A stretch of 64,000 bases of DNA from Novosphingobium sp. (GTDB taxonomy: Bacteria; Pseudomonadota; Alphaproteobacteria; Sphingomonadales; Sphingomonadaceae). Position 1 is the stretch's first letter. Each line of letters starts with the position of its first letter. The stretch is from assembly GCA_017744735.1 (NCBI GenBank), contig JAGIAR010000005.1:124001-188000 (forward strand). Direction: 5' to 3'. Positions 47,184-54,583 of the stretch are shown one piece after another. A program made the position numbers and the translations under genes. Below the pieces are notes generated by a model that saw nothing but the letters and a program-made list of their open reading frames with translations, made no database searches and was not told the origin of the DNA.

Positions 47184-47654
47184 TCACCCGATGCGGTAGA
47201 ACTCGGCAACCCGCTCGAGCGCGATCCGCAGCACCAGCTTGCCGCTGCGGGCAGGCCAGTCGAGCGCCTTCTCGGCCGCCGGCACGCTCTCGCACGCGCA
47301 CACCACCCGCCACAGAATATCGGCCAGCCCGCTGCCCGCCGCGGCGATCGCGCCATCGAACCGGGCCTTCGCCGCAATCTGGCGCTCGGTCGAGGAAAGG
47401 CCGGCAACCCCGCCCTTGATCCTTACCGGATCCCACCGCATGGTGACGCTGGGTCCGAGCGCGGCCCGCTCGTAATCGGCCCGCAGCCGCTCCCCTGCAT
47501 CGAACAGGCGATCGCTCAGATGCCCCCTGGCATGGAGCCAGGCGAGCGGGGATTCGGCCAGGTTCACCGTCACGCTGCGGCGCCGCCGGTCGGCCTCGCC
47601 GCGCCTCCGCGGGCCTTCGCTGGTCAGTTCGCGCTCGACGAGATGCTGCTTCAT
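47184..47654 (-). CDS. DUF6456 protein (GafZ / GafA C-terminal-like)
   Basis: ESPLAWLHARGHLSDRLFDAGERLRADYERAALGPSVTMRWD...GLADILWRVVCACESVPAAEKALDWPARSGKLVLRIALERVAEFY. Confidence 0.85.
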   Translation of the reverse strand: MKQHLVERELTSEGPRRRGEADRRRRSVTVNLAESPLAWLHARGHLSDRLFDAGERLRADYERAALGPSVTMRWDPVRIKGGVAGLSSTERQIAAKARFDGAIAAAGSGLADILWRVVCACESVPAAEKALDWPARSGKLVLRIALERVAEFYRIG

Positions 47655-47701
47655 GGCCGCCTTTCCGGGGAGAATCGGGAAATGTGGCCTTGCCAAGTTC
47701 G

Positions 47702-47742
47702 GGTTATTGTAGGAAAGAGAAAAAACCGATTTGGTTATCAAT
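47702..47742. promoter_or_regulatory. 41-bp element GGTTATT-N15-AACCGATTTGGTTATCAAT shared with 54096-54136
   Basis: 25/26 fixed positions identical to second copy; lies between DUF6456 and XRE genes. Confidence 0.75.
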
Positions 47743-47756
47743 GGGAGGAGCATCCT

Positions 47757-48328
47757 TGATCAACCGTATTCGCGACATCCGCAAGGAAAAGGGCTTGACC
47801 CTGGCCGACGTGGCCGAGCGCTGCCGCCCGGCGACGACCGCCCAGACGATCGGGCGGCTGGAGACCGGGATGCGCAATCTGTCGCTCGGATGGATGAACC
47901 GCATCGCCGGCGCGCTGGAGGTCGAACCGGAAATGCTGGTGCGCGGCGAAAGCGCAGCCCAGCCGCAAGTGGTTGCGCGGCTGACCGACGCCGGCCCCGA
48001 GGCGCTTTCCGCCCCGCGCGATGCGCTGCTGCCGACCGAGCTGGAAAGCGGCGCGCCGCTGGTGTGCCTCGCGATCGAGACCGGTGCGGGCGAATATCGC
48101 GCTGGCGACCAGCTGTGGCTGCGCCAGCTCCCGCCCGAGGAAGCGCCCCGGATGATCAACCGCGACGTGCTGGTGCCGCGCAAGGGCGGGCGGTTTGCCT
48201 TCGGCCGGCTGATCGATCGCCAAGGGACGATGGTGGGGGTGCTGCCCCCCGGTGCCGGGCAGCGCCAGATCGTGATCGACGGGCCCGAATGGCTCGCCAT
48301 GGCCGAAATGCTGGTGCGCAAGCTCTAG
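47757..48328 (+). CDS. XRE-family regulator with S24/CI-like C-terminal fold
   Basis: LINRIRDIRKEKGLTLADVAERCRPATTAQTIGRLETGMRNLSLGWMNRIAGAL; TTG start with GGGAGGAG SD. Confidence 0.85.
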
Positions 48329-48331
48329 CCG

Positions 48332-49510
48332 ATGGGCCGGCGCCTTCTCTCGCTCGCGACGCTCTACCCGAACGCGGCCATGCCCCGCTTCGGCACCTTC
48401 GTCGCGCGGCAGATGGAAGCGCTGGCGGCGCGCGGGAACTGGGACGTCACGGTGATCAACCCGGTCGGCATCCCGCCGCTGGCCTTCGGGCGCTATCGCA
48501 AGCTCGCCGCGACGCTGGGCCGGGGCGAGGAACACGGCGTTCATGTCCACCGCATCCGCTTCACACTGATCCCGACACTTGCGCGGCGCAATCCGGGCGC
48601 GATCGTCCGCGCGATCCTGCCGCTCGCACGCAAGCTCCATGCGGCCGACCCGTTCGACCTGGTCGATGCGCAGTTCTTCTATCCCGACGGACCGGTTGCG
48701 GCGCGGATCGCGCGGGACCTCGACCTGCCGCTTTCGATCAAGGCGCGCGGGGCGGACATCCATTTCTGGGGCCGGCACGAATGGGCGCGACGGGCGATGA
48801 TCGAGGCTGGGGCGCAGGCGGGCGGCCTGCTTGCTGTGTCGGGTCCGCTGGCCGACGACATGGCCGCGCTTGGCCTGGCGCGCGGGAAGATCACGGTCCA
48901 TTACACCGGGCTCGACCGCGGGCGGTTCCACCCGCTCGGGCGCGACAATGCCCGGCTGGCGCTCGCCGCCGATTTCGAAGTGCGGGTCGCGGCCCAGCGC
49001 CGACTGCTCGCCTGCGTCGGCGCGCTGATCCCGCGCAAGGGCCAGGCCTTCGCGATCCGCGCGCTGGCGCGCCTTCCCGATGCCGAACTGGCGCTGGTCG
49101 GCGACGGGCCCGACCGCGCGGCGCTGAAGCGCCTGGCGGGCGAACTGGGGCTGGACGAGCGGGTGCATTTCCTCGGCACGGTCGACCACGACCAATTGCC
49201 GATCGTGCTGTCGGCCGCCGATGCCATGGTGCTGCCCTCGGCGAGCGAGGGGCTGGCCAACGCTTGGGTCGAGGCGCTCGCCTGCGGGACCCCGCTGGTG
49301 ATCTGCGATGCCGGGGGAGCGCGCGAAGTCGTCCGCAGCCCCAGTTCGGGGCGCATCGTCGAACGCACTCCCGAAGCGATCGCAGCGGCCCTGGAGGAAC
49401 TCCTCGCCGATCCGGTACCCCCGCAATTCGTCGCCACCGGGGCGGCGCGCTACAGCTGGGAAGCGAACGCCGCGGCGCTGGAAGCCTATTACGACGGGCT
49501 GGTCGCGTGA
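48332..49510 (+). CDS. glycosyltransferase family 4
   Basis: RRLLACVGALIPRKGQAFAIRAL, PSASEGLANAWVEALACGTPLV. Confidence 0.93.
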   Translation: MGRRLLSLATLYPNAAMPRFGTFVARQMEALAARGNWDVTVINPVGIPPLAFGRYRKLAATLGRGEEHGVHVHRIRFTLIPTLARRNPGAIVRAILPLARKLHAADPFDLVDAQFFYPDGPVAARIARDLDLPLSIKARGADIHFWGRHEWARRAMIEAGAQAGGLLAVSGPLADDMAALGLARGKITVHYTGLDRGRFHPLGRDNARLALAADFEVRVAAQRRLLACVGALIPRKGQAFAIRALARLPDAELALVGDGPDRAALKRLAGELGLDERVHFLGTVDHDQLPIVLSAADAMVLPSASEGLANAWVEALACGTPLVICDAGGAREVVRSPSSGRIVERTPEAIAAALEELLADPVPPQFVATGAARYSWEANAAALEAYYDGLVA

Positions 49511-49516
49511 TCCGCG

Positions 49517-50497
49517 TCAGACCTCGCCGCGCGCGATCCGATCCTGCTTCCTGCCGGCCTCGCCCTCGTCGGCAACGAAACTGCTGGTGCTGACCTTCAG
49601 CCAGACCAGCATCGGCGCCGCCGCATAGATCGAGCTGTAGGTCGCCACGAAGATGCCCAGGATCAGTGCGGCCGAGAAGCCGAAGATGATCCGCGGACCG
49701 AGGAAGAACAGCGCAAGCAGCGCAACCAGGATCGTAACCGAGGTCATCACCGTGCGGTGCAACGTTTCGTTGACCGACAGGTCGAGCAGTTCGGCCATCG
49801 GCATCTTGCGATATTTCTTCAGGTTTTCGCGTATCCGGTCGTAGACCACGATCGTGTCGTTGAGCGAATAGCCGATGACGGTCAGCATCGCCGCGACGAT
49901 CGTCAGGTCGAATTCCATCTGGGTCAGCGCGAACATGCCCAGCACGATGATCACATCGTGGACCAGGCTGACCAGCGCCCCGACGCCGAACTGCCACTCG
50001 AAGCGGAACCAGATATAGATCGAGATCGCGATCGCAGCGAGGCCGAGCGCCTTAAATGCGGTCCAGCCGAGTTCGCCCGAAACCTTGCCCGAGACCGCGG
50101 TAACGCCGTCGATCCGGGCGTCGGGATGCCCCGCCTTGACCGTGTCGACGATGCTGTTGGTCATCTTGTCGGCTGTTCCGGGATCGCGCTCGCTGCCTTC
50201 GGGCAGACGCATGCGGATCGAAATCTCGTTGTTCTTGCCGTAGGTCTGGATCACCGGCTCGCCGTAGCCGAGCCCTTCGATCTCGCTGCGCAGCTTGGCG
50301 ACCGGCGCGTCCTGGCTCTGGGTGAAGGTAACGCGGATCATCTCGCCGCCGACGAAGTCCACCCCGAAGTTCAGACCGTTGACGAACAGCAGCACGACAC
50401 TGGCGGTCATCAGCAGCACGCTGGCGATGGTGGTCGGCCACTGCCACCGCAGGAAGCGGATGTTGGTGTTCTCGGGAAGCAGTTTGAGCAGGCGCAT
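49517..50497 (-). CDS. secF: protein translocase subunit SecF
   Basis: GVDFVGGEMIRV, VIGYSLNDTIVVYDRIREN. Confidence 0.97.
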   Translation of the reverse strand: MRLLKLLPENTNIRFLRWQWPTTIASVLLMTASVVLLFVNGLNFGVDFVGGEMIRVTFTQSQDAPVAKLRSEIEGLGYGEPVIQTYGKNNEISIRMRLPEGSERDPGTADKMTNSIVDTVKAGHPDARIDGVTAVSGKVSGELGWTAFKALGLAAIAISIYIWFRFEWQFGVGALVSLVHDVIIVLGMFALTQMEFDLTIVAAMLTVIGYSLNDTIVVYDRIRENLKKYRKMPMAELLDLSVNETLHRTVMTSVTILVALLALFFLGPRIIFGFSAALILGIFVATYSSIYAAAPMLVWLKVSTSSFVADEGEAGRKQDRIARGEV

Positions 50498-50507
50498 CGC
50501 CGGATCC

Positions 50508-52106
50508 TCAGATTGTAATGTCCGCCGGGCGCGCCTTGCGCAGCCACAGCGCCACCCACATGCGGGTGAGGTAGACGGCGGTGAACACCGAAGTCGCGAT
50601 GCCGATCATCAGCACCACCGCGAAGCCCTTGATCGGCCCGGTGCCGATCAGGAACATCAGCGTCGCCGCGATGATGTGCGTGATGTTCGCATCGAAGATC
50701 GTGCGACTGGCCTCCGTGTAGCCGGTCTCGACCGCCTGGAACACACGCCGCCCGCGTCGCCGCTCTTCGCCGATACGCTCGTTGATCAGCACGTTGGCGT
50801 CGACCGCCGCGCCGATCGTCAGCACGAAGCCGGCAATGCCGGGCAAGGTGAGCGTCGCGGTGAACATCGCCATGATCCCGAGGATCATCAGCACGTTGAT
50901 GACCAGCGCGCAGTTCGCATAGATGCCGAACCGGCCATAGGCGGCGACCATCAGCACGATAATGCCGAGCGTGCCGATGCCGATCGCGATCATGCCCTTG
51001 TGGACCGAATCCGCGCCGAGTTCGGCGCCGACGCTACCCTGCTGGATCACGGTGAGATCGACCGGCAGCGAGCCAGACTGCAGCGCGATCGCGAGTTCGT
51101 TGGCGCTCTCGGCGTTGAAGCTGCCCGAAATCGAAGCGCGCCCGCCGAGGATCGGCTCGTTGATGTTCGGTGCCGACAGCACTTGCCCGTCAAGGATGAT
51201 CGCGAAAGGCTTGCCGACGTTCTGCGTGGTCAGCGCCGCGAATTTCGCCCCGCCCTGCTGGTCGAACGCGATTTCGACGGTGTTCTCGTTGGTCCGCTGG
51301 TCATGCCCGGCCTTGGCGGCGGTCAGCGAATCGCCGCGAATCCCGCCGAGCCGCTTGACCGCGATCGAAGTGCCCTGCTGCGGCGTGCCGGGCGCATAGG
51401 GCACGATCTCGCTGCCCGGAGGGGCGATGCCCTTCGCGATATCGGCCGGCAGCGCAGTGCCGTCGACCAGCTTGAATTCGAGCTTGGCGGTCTTGCCCAG
51501 CAGCGAAATGAGTTTTTGCGGATCGCTGAGGCCCGGCACCTGCACCGAGATGCGGTCGTCGCCTTCGCGCAGGATGGTCGGCTCGCGCGTGCCGAGCGCG
51601 TCGATGCGCTTGCGCACCACGTCGGTTGCGGCTTCCATCGCGTTGGAGAACGCGCTGTCGAGGCCGGCCTTGGTCGGCGTCAGCACGATGCGGCTGCCAT
51701 CGACGACCTGGATATCCCATTCCTTCTGCGTGCCGTTGCCGTTCACCAGCGGAAGCAGCTTTTCGCGCGCGGCATCGACCTGCGCGGGATTGGCGAGCAG
51801 GAAGGTCATCCGGCCGTTGGCGGTGGAAACGTCGCCGATGCTGATTTCGGGCGACGCGAGCCGCATCGCCCGGCGAACGTCTTCCTCCATGCTCTCGAGC
51901 CGCTGGCGCGCAACCTGCGCGGGATTGGCTTCAAGCAGGATCTGGCTGCCTCCGGCAAGGTCGAGGCCGAGATTGACCTGCGGCACCGGCAGCGAATCGG
52001 GCAGTTTGACGCCCGCGAGCGACAGCACCGACGGCACGGCAGCCAGCGCGCAGGCCAGCGCGATGAACCACAGCCAGACCCGCTTCCAGATGGAAAATTC
52101 GAGCAT
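50508..52106 (-). CDS. secD: protein translocase subunit SecD
   Basis: LGLDLAGGSQILLE, GAAVDANVLINERI. Confidence 0.97.
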   Translation of the reverse strand: MLEFSIWKRVWLWFIALACALAAVPSVLSLAGVKLPDSLPVPQVNLGLDLAGGSQILLEANPAQVARQRLESMEEDVRRAMRLASPEISIGDVSTANGRMTFLLANPAQVDAAREKLLPLVNGNGTQKEWDIQVVDGSRIVLTPTKAGLDSAFSNAMEAATDVVRKRIDALGTREPTILREGDDRISVQVPGLSDPQKLISLLGKTAKLEFKLVDGTALPADIAKGIAPPGSEIVPYAPGTPQQGTSIAVKRLGGIRGDSLTAAKAGHDQRTNENTVEIAFDQQGGAKFAALTTQNVGKPFAIILDGQVLSAPNINEPILGGRASISGSFNAESANELAIALQSGSLPVDLTVIQQGSVGAELGADSVHKGMIAIGIGTLGIIVLMVAAYGRFGIYANCALVINVLMILGIMAMFTATLTLPGIAGFVLTIGAAVDANVLINERIGEERRRGRRVFQAVETGYTEASRTIFDANITHIIAATLMFLIGTGPIKGFAVVLMIGIATSVFTAVYLTRMWVALWLRKARPADITI

Positions 52107-52119
52107 CGCAGCCGGCCGC

Positions 52120-52440
52120 TCAGTCGTTCGCCGGAGTGCCGGTGGGCGAAACGAGGTCAGAAATCGTCTGCTTGACCACCTTGACCTTCACCCCCTGCGC
52201 GATCTCGAGATCGACATAGGTATCGTCGACCTTGGTGACCTTGCCGACGATCCCGCCGGCGGTAATCACCTGGTCGCCGCGCTTCATCGCCGCGACCTTG
52301 TTCCGGTGCTCCTTCTGCTGGCGCATCTGCGGGCGGATGATCAGGAACCAGAAGATCACGACCATGCCGGCGATCGGCAAGAACTGCATCCACGCGGGAG
52401 CGGTGCCAGCCGAAGCCGCAGCGGAAAGAACATCAAGCAT
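52120..52440 (-). CDS. yajC: preprotein translocase subunit YajC
   Basis: FWFLIIRPQMRQQKEHRNKVAAMKRGDQVITAGGIVGKVTKV. Confidence 0.97.
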   Translation of the reverse strand: MLDVLSAAASAGTAPAWMQFLPIAGMVVIFWFLIIRPQMRQQKEHRNKVAAMKRGDQVITAGGIVGKVTKVDDTYVDLEIAQGVKVKVVKQTISDLVSPTGTPAND

Positions 52441-52653
52441 CAGGCGAGCCCCTCATAGGCAATTATCGCGTTCAGTTGGATGCCGGGAGGCCGCTTTTCA
52501 AGGCTTCCGACAGGACGCCCCGGCGCCTAGCAGCAAAGGTTTGGGCTGGCAACGCGCCTGCACCGTGGCACTTCGCGCCGCAAATCGCACACCCCCACCG
52601 GAGCGCGCTTGCATGATCGGGGGCGCTTGGCTATTGGGCGCGCCTCCACTGAT

Positions 52654-52730
52654 CGGGACGTAGCGCAGCCTGGTAGCGCATCACACTGGGGGTGTGGGGG
52701 TCGGAGGTTCGAATCCTCTCGTCCCGACCA
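52654..52730 (+). tRNA. tRNA-Pro (GGG)
   Basis: CGGGACGTAGCGCAGCCTGGTAGCGCATCACACTGGGGGTGTGGGGGTCGGAGGTTCGAATCCTCTCGTCCCGACCA. Confidence 0.95.
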
Positions 52731-52754
52731 GTGGAATTTCCCCCCAATGCCCCG

Positions 52755-53159
52755 CTAGCGCCGGTCGAGCAGCCGCCCGACACTGCGTTTCGCGCTCGGC
52801 TGCTTCTTCGCGCCGTCGCTCGCTTCCAGCATCTTGCGGATATCCTCGATCTCGACATCGGTCAGGTGCTCGATCCCGATGAATTCCTCGCGCGCCTTGC
52901 CGACCGCGCGCAGCAGTTCGTCGAGCTTGGCCTGCATCGCCGAGGCATCGCGATTCTGCGAATTCTGGACCAGGAACACCATCAGGAAGGTGACGATGGT
53001 GGTGCCGGTGTTGATCACCAGCTGCCACACGTCGGAAAACTGGAACATCGGGCCGGTCGCCGCCCACACCAGCACCGTGCCGAGGGCGAGGATGAAGGTG
53101 ATCGGCTTGCCCGACCAGGCGGCGATTCTTCCGGCGACTTTGGTGAAGAGCTTGTTCAT
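52755..53159 (-). CDS. low-affinity iron permease family protein
   Basis: GRIAAWSGKPITFILALGTVLVWAATGPMFQFSDVWQLVINTGTTIVTFLMVFLVQNSQNRD. Confidence 0.92.
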   Translation of the reverse strand: MNKLFTKVAGRIAAWSGKPITFILALGTVLVWAATGPMFQFSDVWQLVINTGTTIVTFLMVFLVQNSQNRDASAMQAKLDELLRAVGKAREEFIGIEHLTDVEIEDIRKMLEASDGAKKQPSAKRSVGRLLDRR

Positions 53160-53206
53160 CGCGGTTCCCCTTTTCCGGGAAAAGCGCCGAAGCGCCGCCG
53201 CGTTCC

Positions 53207-54058
53207 CTAGCGCGGCGGGATGAGCGTGTTTTCGATCGCCCCGATCCCGTCGATTTCGCATCGCACGACATCTCCGGCCTTGAGGAAGCTGGGGGGCTGC
53301 ATGCCTGCGCCAACCCCTTCCGGCGTGCCGGTCGCGATCAGGTCGCCCGGCTCGAGCGTGAACGCGGTCGAGAGATATTCGATCTGCGCGGCGACCGGGT
53401 GGATCATGTTGGAAGTATTGCTCTCCTGCCGCTTTGCGCCGTTGACGAGGCAGCGCAGCGCAAGGTCTTGCGGATCGGGAATCTCGTCGGCGGTGACGAT
53501 CCACGGACCGATCGGGCCGTGGGTGTCGAAGCTCTTGCCCATGGTAAAGGTCGGCGTGTGGCGCTGCCAGTCGCGCGCCGAGACGTCGTTCGCCACCAGA
53601 TAGCCGAACACGTGGGACAGCGCGTCGGCGGCCGAGACGCCCTTGGCCTTGGCCCCGATCACCACGCCCAGCTCGACCTCGTAATCGACCATGTCCGACA
53701 CGCCCGGGTCGATCGGATCGAAGGGGCCCGAGATCGCGGTGGTCTGCTTGTTGAACCAGTACTGGTGCGGCGGCGGGCCGTCGTGGCCCATCTCGGCAAC
53801 GTGCTTGCGGTAATTCATCCCGATCGCGAGATATTTGCCCGGCCGCAGCGGCGCGAGCAGCTTCACATCGGCCAGCCGGTGATGCGGCGCGGTTCCGTCG
53901 GTGAGGTCGCGGATTTCCTGCAGCGCCGCCGCGCCGCCGGCGATGATCGCCAGCATGTCGGGGAATTCGCAGCCCGCGGCCGAGAGGCTGGTGACGCCCT
54001 CGTCTTCGATCAGCCCCAGATCGACCTGCCCCGCAATCTCGAACCGCGCCAGTTTCAT
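53207..54058 (-). CDS. fumarylacetoacetate hydrolase family protein
   Basis: IGMNYRKHVAEMG, YEVELGVVIGAKAKGVSAADAL. Confidence 0.93.
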   Translation of the reverse strand: MKLARFEIAGQVDLGLIEDEGVTSLSAAGCEFPDMLAIIAGGAAALQEIRDLTDGTAPHHRLADVKLLAPLRPGKYLAIGMNYRKHVAEMGHDGPPPHQYWFNKQTTAISGPFDPIDPGVSDMVDYEVELGVVIGAKAKGVSAADALSHVFGYLVANDVSARDWQRHTPTFTMGKSFDTHGPIGPWIVTADEIPDPQDLALRCLVNGAKRQESNTSNMIHPVAAQIEYLSTAFTLEPGDLIATGTPEGVGAGMQPPSFLKAGDVVRCEIDGIGAIENTLIPPR

Positions 54059-54095
54059 TCGCACACTCCCAAAGCCTTGAGCGCACACGCCTACT

Positions 54096-54136
54096 GGTTA
54101 TTTCATTTTCCTACAAGAACCGTTTTGGTTATCAAT
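54096..54136. promoter_or_regulatory. second copy of 41-bp element GGTTATT-N15-AACCGTTTTGGTTATCAAT
   Basis: Upstream of 3TM holin gene; matches 47702-47742 with identical internal spacing. Confidence 0.75.
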
Positions 54137-54169
54137 CTGCGTGACTCGAACCAAATGGAGCTTTTTGCG

Positions 54170-54583
54170 ATGGCCATTCTCGACGCGCTGCTCGGCCCGA
54201 TCACCTCGATCATCGACAAGGTGATCCCCGATCCCGCCGCGCGCGACAAGGCGAAGCTTGAGCTGCTCCAGCTCCAAGGCACGCAGGAACTCCGGCAGAT
54301 CAACGCGCAGCTTTCCGCGATCGTCGCCGAGGCCAATTCGAAAGACCCCTGGACCAGCCGCGCCCGCCCGAGCTTCCTCTATGTGATCTATGTGCTGCTG
54401 TTGTGGGCGATCCCGATGGGCATCCTCGCCGCCTTCCGCCCCGACACCGCGCGCGACATCGCCAGCGGCATGAACGCCTATCTCAACGGCCTGCCCGAAC
54501 CGCTCTACGCGCTCTTCGGCACCGGCTACCTCGGCTACACCGCCGCGCGGCAGTGGGGGAAGGTCAAGGGGGTGGAGGGTTGA
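54170..54583 (+). CDS. 3TM holin (GTA_holin_3TM-like)
   Basis: IIDKVIPDPAARDKAKLELLQLQGTQELRQINAQLSAIVAEANSKDPWTSRARPSFLYVIYVLLLWAIPMGIL...GTGYLGYTAARQWGKVKG. Confidence 0.82.
   Translation: MAILDALLGPITSIIDKVIPDPAARDKAKLELLQLQGTQELRQINAQLSAIVAEANSKDPWTSRARPSFLYVIYVLLLWAIPMGILAAFRPDTARDIASGMNAYLNGLPEPLYALFGTGYLGYTAARQWGKVKGVEG

Follow-up and report, generated by a model that had tools for sequence, protein, structure and literature searches.

Experimental knowledge of gene transfer agents (GTAs) is, as far as we know, limited to a few bacteria, and it has so far been hard to define where their regulators bind. For RcGTA of Rhodobacter capsulatus, a DUF6456-domain activator brings the head-tail cluster under common control with two unlinked kinds of locus, for the head spike and for lysis (PMC9638019, PMC6363796), both of which GafA drives (PMC9638019). 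In Caulobacter crescentus, gafYZ is repressed by RogA, which has the operator GGAA-N4-TTCC and bound only gafYZ and one unrelated promoter in ChIP (PMC9632790). The XRE protein CdxB of the same species represses both gafYZ and the lysis genes lypABC (PMC13236601). GTA control in the Sphingomonadales appears to be undescribed in the literature consulted.

The window, which is the whole 64,000-nucleotide stretch of Novosphingobium sp. DNA analysed, contains a divergent DUF6456/XRE gene pair and, at a distance from it, a lone holin gene (Table 1). A first-pass annotation had identified these three genes and had proposed, as a candidate, a dispersed GTA regulon in which all three have a control element in common. 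Profile searches confirm the gene calls, with 137 bits against a cut-off of 26.3 for the DUF6456 protein (PF20057) and 112 bits against 24.8 for the holin (PF11351), which also matches PHROG 3427 holin (E 4e-28); the NCBIfam profiles recognised neither protein. The DUF6456 protein is only the C-terminal domain of the GafA-type GTA activators, the domain beginning at residue 29, and its 156 residues do not include the DnaA-like N-terminal and central RNA-polymerase-binding regions of a complete GafA. There is no N-terminal extension in this family, and relatives from other families have a longer N-terminus. A Foldseek search with this protein returned sigma-4 matches with E of about 4-6, which are too weak alone to assign a fold.

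The XRE protein, whose N-terminus MINRIRDI is conserved in an alignment of relatives, models as a lambda-CI-like repressor with a helix-turn-helix and a CI/LexA-like C-terminal domain. The AlphaFold model has a pLDDT of 89.6 and its highest-ranking Foldseek match is the lambda-186 hybrid repressor, the whole-chain match being partial; the lambda repressor C-terminal domain (1kca/1f39) was also matched. The helix-turn-helix of the model resembles that of DdrO and the C-terminal domain that of lambda CI, and in common with both systems there is a palindromic operator-like sequence in the repressor gene's own promoter. Unlike them, the alignment reveals no evident catalytic Ser/Lys dyad in the C-terminal domain, and therefore no SOS-type self-cleavage is predicted. 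The modelled architecture, an N-terminal helix-turn-helix followed by a CI/LexA-like domain lacking cleavage residues, is that of RogA, which controls a GafZ-type activator gene (PMC9632790).

Table 1. Features of the XRE/DUF6456 and holin loci, in window positions
Feature	Position	Strand	Basis
DUF6456 gene, 156 aa, GafZ-like	47184..47654	-	Pfam PF20057 E 5e-40
GANTC (CcrM-type) site, DUF6456 leader	47672..47676	.	sequence
CTTGCC, possible -35 of XRE promoter	47689..47694	+	alignment of relatives; putative role
CTTTCCTACA element toward DUF6456 (TGTAGGAAAG on +)	47708..47717	-	TGTAGGAAA conservation
Operator-like palindrome AACC-GATTT-GGTT, 19 bp ahead of XRE start codon	47724..47736	.	read in sequence; conserved at XRE loci
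XRE regulator, 190 aa, TTG start	47756..48328	+	HTH_3
GGTTATT, prefix of the first-pass element	54096..54102	+	not conserved at holins
TTTTCCTACA element	54106..54115	+	PWM score and exact full-promoter match
Operator-like palindrome AACC-GTTTT-GGTT	54118..54130	.	sequence; conserved at relatives' holins
TATCAA, candidate -10 of holin promoter	54130..54135	+	spacing and GGTTA conservation
GACTC (GANTC, CcrM-type) site, holin leader	54143..54147	.	sequence
Lone 3-TM holin, 137 aa	54170..54583	+	GTA_holin_3TM PF11351 E 3e-32

The two loci are joined by the sequence GGTTATT-N15-AACCGWTTTGGTTATCAAT, which occurs exactly as first described at 47702-47742 and 54096-54136, both on the + strand, with 25/26 identity outside the spacer and GGTTAT repeats 31 bp apart. 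Its chance expectation in the window is 0.00 (100 dinucleotide shuffles). The 41-bp element as originally drawn is not the functional unit, as its limits were misplaced. The 15 nucleotides taken as a spacer are not random, containing TGTAGGAAAG in the first copy and the reverse-complement form TTTTCCTACA in the second, so that this element points toward the DUF6456 gene in one copy and toward the holin in the other. It is TTTTCCTACA and the palindrome AACC-N5-GGTT that are conserved. At holins, the conserved unit is TTTTCCTACA-NN-AACC-N5-GGTTA, and the XRE/DUF6456 locus consists of two units back-to-back around a single TTTCCTACA. The holin promoters of relatives lack the GGTTATT with which the holin copy begins. 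This prefix may be a half-site left over from an upstream operator; full upstream operators are present in one holin promoter (G043) and one spike promoter (G004).

Ahead of the holin, TTTCCT within the TTTTCCTACA element occupies the -35 position at 17 bp from TATCAA, and the palindrome falls between the -35 and the -10 of the candidate promoter. Under a matrix trained on XRE/DUF6456 intergenic regions from which its own was excluded, this TTTTCCTACA site reaches 23.9, and the highest value among shuffles is 16.6. On the DUF6456 side, the CTTTCCTACA element lies at a fixed 13-bp distance from GGCAAG/CTTGCC in the alignment of relatives, the CTTGCC of Table 1 reading GGCAAG in the direction of DUF6456 at a constant spacing from TGTAGGAAAG. 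No consensus-like -10 was found for the DUF6456 promoter.

Footprinting of 80 named XRE loci from the Erythrobacteraceae and Sphingomonadaceae scored the palindrome ahead of XRE at 75, a count that includes one invalid and unreliable locus (L312) that is without real upstream sequence. Exact TGTAGGAAA is present in 72 of these 80 upstream regions. At nearby holins, TTTTCCTACA was found in 28 out of 36 cases, 21 of which have the palindrome as well, and a matrix trained only on the XRE/DUF6456 intergenic regions predicts 22 holin promoters of the family (0/100 shuffles each). In four of five other genomes the element is 540-700 bp upstream, ahead of the gene that precedes the holin in an operon; this gene is a clear GH108-type endolysin in two genomes and a 130-aa ORF in a third. 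Within the Sphingomonadaceae the palindrome occurs both in the XRE/DUF6456 intergenic region and ahead of the GTA -35. The putative control element is conserved at orthologous XRE/DUF6456 and holin loci across dozens of genera, which supports, on comparative sequence grounds, the view that the distant holin is co-regulated with the XRE/DUF6456 pair.

Searches of the genome used sequence patterns and protein queries. The scan pattern first suggested, with up to 3 mismatches, matches nothing in the 3.53-Mb genome beyond the two original sites and is too strict. The corrected full-promoter pattern has four exact sites (reversed control, 0), which precede the holin, a head-decoration operon (PHROG E 7e-17), a small-terminase paralogue (PHROG E 4e-18), and a 40-aa peptide that recurs with its promoter in G005. 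The same full promoter is ahead of spike_base RCAP_Rcc01079 in G048, and over 81 genomes 25 of 28 matches are at holin, spike, gp1-like or small-peptide loci. A putative common control element is thus found at regulator, lysis and particle-accessory loci, as in a GTA-type dispersed regulon. Exact ATAACC-N5-GGTTAT was rejected as a sole marker of the regulon; it also matches dispersed repeats across genomes.

The first-pass annotation had made its reading depend on a GTA head-tail cluster elsewhere in the genome. This cluster is absent, though its promoter and a deletion scar remain: the promoter, gp1 and the start of the terminase are fused to DUF2793. The promoter sequence TTGACATCGTCACGCTATTTGGTTA, a pattern seen ahead of clusters in about 20 genera, is present at position 59430 of contig C17 with 0 mismatches. 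Neither a capsid homologue nor DUF2460 was found, so this genome lacks a functional RcGTA-type GTA; both are kept in the congeners G001, G003 and G004. These two markers were used because GTA_TIM (PF13547) had no match above cut-off in the 81 genomes and is of no use for detecting GTAs in this order. G005 shares an identical deletion junction, and between it and the genome studied here (G000) XRE, DUF6456 and the holin are intact with dN/dS of 0.13-0.15, a comparison that cannot place the conservation after the deletion since the tree does not make the two sisters; the sister of G005 is G004, where the cluster is intact. The core of the original proposal, a dispersed GTA regulon whose members have a control element in common, has gained support from conservation in relatives and from the further loci, while its element limits, its scan pattern and its expectation of a cluster in this genome have not stood.

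We conclude that the dispersed GTA regulon is real and has a new promoter code, and that the lineage carrying it has lost its particle genes. Conservation of the elements, their distribution over genomes, the deletion scar and the modelled fold of XRE are established here; the binding and pairing of proteins and elements, the direction of control and a CcrM input we infer. The XRE/DUF6456 locus is probably the control hub, and the holin one remote arm, of such a regulon under a CI/RogA-like XRE repressor. XRE would bind AACC-N5-GGTT and repress its own gene and the divergent DUF6456 (GafZ-like) gene, and sites between -35 and -10 would extend this repression to the unlinked holin, head-decoration, small-terminase-paralogue and small-peptide genes. 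At the TTTTCCTACA -35, the DUF6456 protein, through a sigma-region-4-like domain, would help RNA polymerase to start, and GANTC sites in the leaders would likely add a cell-cycle (CcrM/GcrA) input. Once repression by XRE is lifted, DUF6456 would rise and the lysis and particle-accessory genes would come on together with the GTA cluster. Here, with the cluster deleted after the promoter, gp1 and terminase start, the regulon would outlive the particle.

The pairing of proteins with elements is open to another reading, in which AACC-N5-GGTT is the activator site of DUF6456, which would bind it upstream of the -35 both in its own promoter, for positive autoregulation, and in the GTA promoter, XRE merely sharing the intergenic region. 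The palindrome does lie just upstream of the -35 at the GTA and DUF6456 promoters, where activators act, and GafA has a dimeric C-terminal domain that binds close to the -35 of its own promoter (PMC9638019). Three genomes with the substitution Q30V, which alters the XRE recognition helix, are missing the palindrome ahead of XRE, and two of them retain AACC-N5-GGTT at the GTA promoter, where another protein may use it; because of these two, covariation of recognition helix and operator is not decisive. However, the palindrome tends to track XRE, and TTTTCCTACA to track DUF6456. Among seven loci that have XRE and no DUF6456, the palindrome is kept at five and TTTCCTACA at one; of these genomes, G017 keeps TGTAGGAAAG, and G035 has lost the palindrome. 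The reverse case, G033 with DUF6456 and no XRE, keeps TGTCCTACA and has no palindrome within 12.5 kb. The position of the holin site would also be unfavourable for ordinary activation. Which of XRE and DUF6456, or both, would bind the palindrome is indicated by these presence/absence trends, and exclusive use by DUF6456 appears unlikely.

It is far less probable that the sequence common to these loci belongs to an ordinary promoter module, general or stationary-phase, or to a mobile repeat, rather than being GTA-specific. Four relatives (G002, G004, G009 and G013) do have dispersed repeats of 350-480 bp that begin with another promoter, TTGACATTT-ATAACC-N5-GGTTAT, and G002/G003 have about 8 scattered GTA-type promoters. 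Against this, all four exact sites here precede ORFs, three with phage-type functions, and the concentration of full-promoter matches at GTA-type loci over the 81 genomes largely refutes the idea. A separate question, compatible with repression by XRE, concerns the present-day use of the regulon, which may be an orphan after loss of the structural genes: either a lysis module, still regulated, that is retained for a benefit of another kind, altruistic lysis or the release of DNA for example, or a slowly decaying relic. The deletion of the cluster beside intact regulatory and holin genes with low dN/dS, and the four dispersed promoters that are still perfect, would fit this. The tree, which allows the conservation to predate the loss, and the absence of a GH108 endolysin from the genome do not, and the orphan state seems possible but less likely than not.

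Set beside the RcGTA regulon under GafA/CtrA, the system is alike in its DUF6456-domain regulator and scattered lysis and accessory loci, and differs in having the DUF6456 domain alone, a divergent CI-like XRE, the shared TTTTCCTACA and AACC-N5-GGTT, and a deleted cluster. No description of such a motif was found in the literature consulted. In contrast to RogA, the XRE gene adjoins DUF6456 and its putative operator is also on lysis and head-decoration genes; GGAA-N4-TTCC was not found at the activator promoter, where the conserved palindrome is AACC-N5-GGTT. The proposed role of XRE is like that of CdxB, one XRE repressor coupling GTA activation and host lysis. In the CdxB system lysis is by LypABC and no holin was found, whereas the coupled gene here is a PF11351 holin and, in relatives, an endolysin-holin operon.

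The promoter leaders often contain GANTC (CcrM) sites at fixed distances. These are present in 40 of 77 DUF6456 leaders and in 15 of 22 holin leaders, 13 of the latter being 10-11 nt past GGTTA. Tentatively, and with considerable doubt, a three-part code of XRE palindrome, DUF6456 -35 element TTTTCCTACA and leader GANTC might put GTA-type lysis and accessory genes under cell-cycle timing in the Erythrobacteraceae and relatives, and might survive as a cell-cycle-gated lysis programme in its own right where the particle genes have been deleted. A link between CcrM and GTAs has been raised as an open question (PMC9836097), and the GANTC pattern makes it directly testable. With a sequence code that can be read by eye, the GTA regulon can be listed in dozens of genera, and one operator can be tested on two promoters. 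It also raises the question of why a lysis programme persists after the particle has been lost.

The two 41-bp copies described in the first-pass annotation were confirmed in coordinates and identity by reading the sequence and by a pattern search of the window, and profile searches returned the same genes (DUF6456, an HTH_3 XRE regulator and a PF11351 holin). A search of the 3.53-Mb genome that allowed 3 mismatches found no further copies of the pair. The 41-bp element is not the conserved unit; alignment of relatives identifies two separate elements, the palindrome AACC-N5-GGTT and TTTTCCTACA. The latter lies inside what had been read as an N15 spacer. Copy 1 carries it as TGTAGGAAAG, directed towards DUF6456, and copy 2 as TTTTCCTACA, turned the other way round and directed towards the holin. 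None of the other holin promoters aligned from relatives shows the GGTTATT prefix that the holin copy has; this prefix may be what is left of a half-site, as full palindromes are present upstream of TTTTCCTACA in the holin promoter of relative G043 and the spike promoter of relative G004. The XRE start codon is TTG; relatives use ATG, GTG or TTG at this same position. The region separating the XRE locus from the holin includes a tRNA gene, amid secDF, yajC and other housekeeping genes.

Coordinates of the features (window positions unless a contig or locus is named)
Feature	Position	Remark
41-bp copy 1	47702-47742	between DUF6456 and XRE genes
41-bp copy 2	54096-54136	before holin
XRE start codon	47756	TTG
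GANTC	47672-47676	DUF6456 leader
GANTC	54143-54147	holin leader
tRNA-Pro(GGG)	52654-52730	
GTA-cluster promoter	C17:59430	one perfect occurrence in this genome
Deletion junction	C17:59430-61000 (L204)	same in G005 (C110, L212)
Hydrophobic peptide	L205:5101-5223	35-40 aa
Hydrophobic peptide	L208:4148-4255	35-40 aa

Among 80 named loci fetched by the XRE protein, 76 have a divergent DUF6456 and 72 have TGTAGGAAA; the exact palindrome was scored no more than 140 bp from the XRE start in 75, with one locus (L312) unreliable. TTTTCCTACA is present at 28 of the 36 holins within reach. A weight matrix trained solely on XRE/DUF6456 intergenic regions, this genome excluded, matches 22 holin promoters of the family at scores never reached in 100 shuffles each. 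In four of the five remaining family genomes, the element is found 540-700 bp further upstream, ahead of the gene that precedes the holin (a clear GH108-type endolysin in two, a 130-aa ORF in a third); its position thus tracks the lysis transcription unit.

The pattern TTTTCCTACA-NN-AACC-N5-GGTTA has 4 exact sites in this genome and its control pattern has none. They precede the holin, an operon of 143-aa and 423-aa genes (the second encodes a head-decoration protein that includes a GDSL-like part), a gene for a small-terminase-like protein of 219 aa that is paralogous to gp1 of the gene transfer agent (GTA), and a 40-aa hydrophobic peptide that recurs in relative G005 under the same promoter. 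This peptide (LLTALAALIASLASLLRALR) is kept together with its TTTTCCTACA promoter and is possibly a small lysis or membrane factor. The DUF6456 promoter has the variant TTTCCTACA-NN-AACC-N7-GGCAAG, and the GTA-cluster promoter, TAACC-N5-GGcaC...TTGACATCGTNACGCTNNNNGGTTA, is found in about 20 genera.

The holin promoter, TTTCCT-N17-TATCAA, puts TTTTCCTACA at -35 and has its spacer filled by the palindrome, a classic position for a repressor. In the GTA and DUF6456 promoters the palindrome is just upstream of -35. XRE loci without DUF6456 keep the palindrome in 5 of 7 cases and TTTCCTACA in only 1 of 7, while G033, without XRE, has lost the palindrome and kept TGTCCTACA. Because presence and absence across loci point the same way, the palindrome is putatively assigned to XRE and TTTTCCTACA to DUF6456, with exceptions. 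The C-termini of DUF6456 relatives resemble sigma factors (PMC6363796). The confident XRE structure model (pLDDT 89.6) has a lambda-186 hybrid repressor as its top match; other matches include C-terminal domains of lambda CI and HTHs of DdrO. The XRE alignment shows no evident Ser/Lys dyad of the usual kind, as in RogA, the Caulobacter repressor of gafYZ (PMC9632790). XRE and its palindrome persist where no divergent DUF6456 was found in Croceibacterium xixiisoli (L338), Novosphingobium rosa (L336) and L361; the repressor may have another role, since C. xixiisoli also lacks the holin and capsid.

The GTA cluster itself is gone from this genome, in which capsid and DUF2460 are absent. After its promoter come an intact gp1 and the beginning of the terminase gene, followed by a DUF2793 gene, which in intact clusters is beyond the tail genes. 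Assembly completeness is 92.7%; the scar is nevertheless within a contig. The terminase-DUF2793 junction is base-for-base the same in G005, which is not a sister of this genome; intact clusters are kept in G004, the sister of G005, and in G001. Two separate deletions would give such a distribution, as would a single event followed by transfer; the latter looks more likely because the junction flanks have almost no mutual homology in intact clusters.

Promoter-like repeats are also dispersed in relatives. About 8 copies of a GTA-type promoter and leader (about 75-95 bp, ending GAACATCGCGATAGTGCGANTCG) precede unrelated genes in the congeners G002 (L190, L202) and G003 (L213-L219), and this leader, which is conserved and transcribed, may serve as an antitermination site. 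Repeats of 350-480 bp in G002, G004, G009 and G013 (L383, L385-L393, L403-L405, L289, L290) start with TTGACATTT-ATAACC-N5-GGTTAT, a strong-looking promoter with the operator within its spacer. GANTC, the site of CcrM (the base at N varies), is found in regulon leaders at preferred distances, 10-11 nt past GGTTA in 13 of 22 holin leaders and at 25 nt in 13 of 19 GTA promoters, and among all 16 palindromes of the form xyNy'x' it is the most frequent in every leader class examined. As of 2022, no link between CcrM and GTAs had been examined (PMC9836097).

Dispersed GTA regulons are already known in Rhodobacter (PMC9638019), as is the coupling of activation and lysis by XRE in Caulobacter (PMC13236601). 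What is new is the promoter code, the order Sphingomonadales, a direct link from repressor to holin to which the sequence points, and a regulon that outlasts the loss of its GTA cluster.
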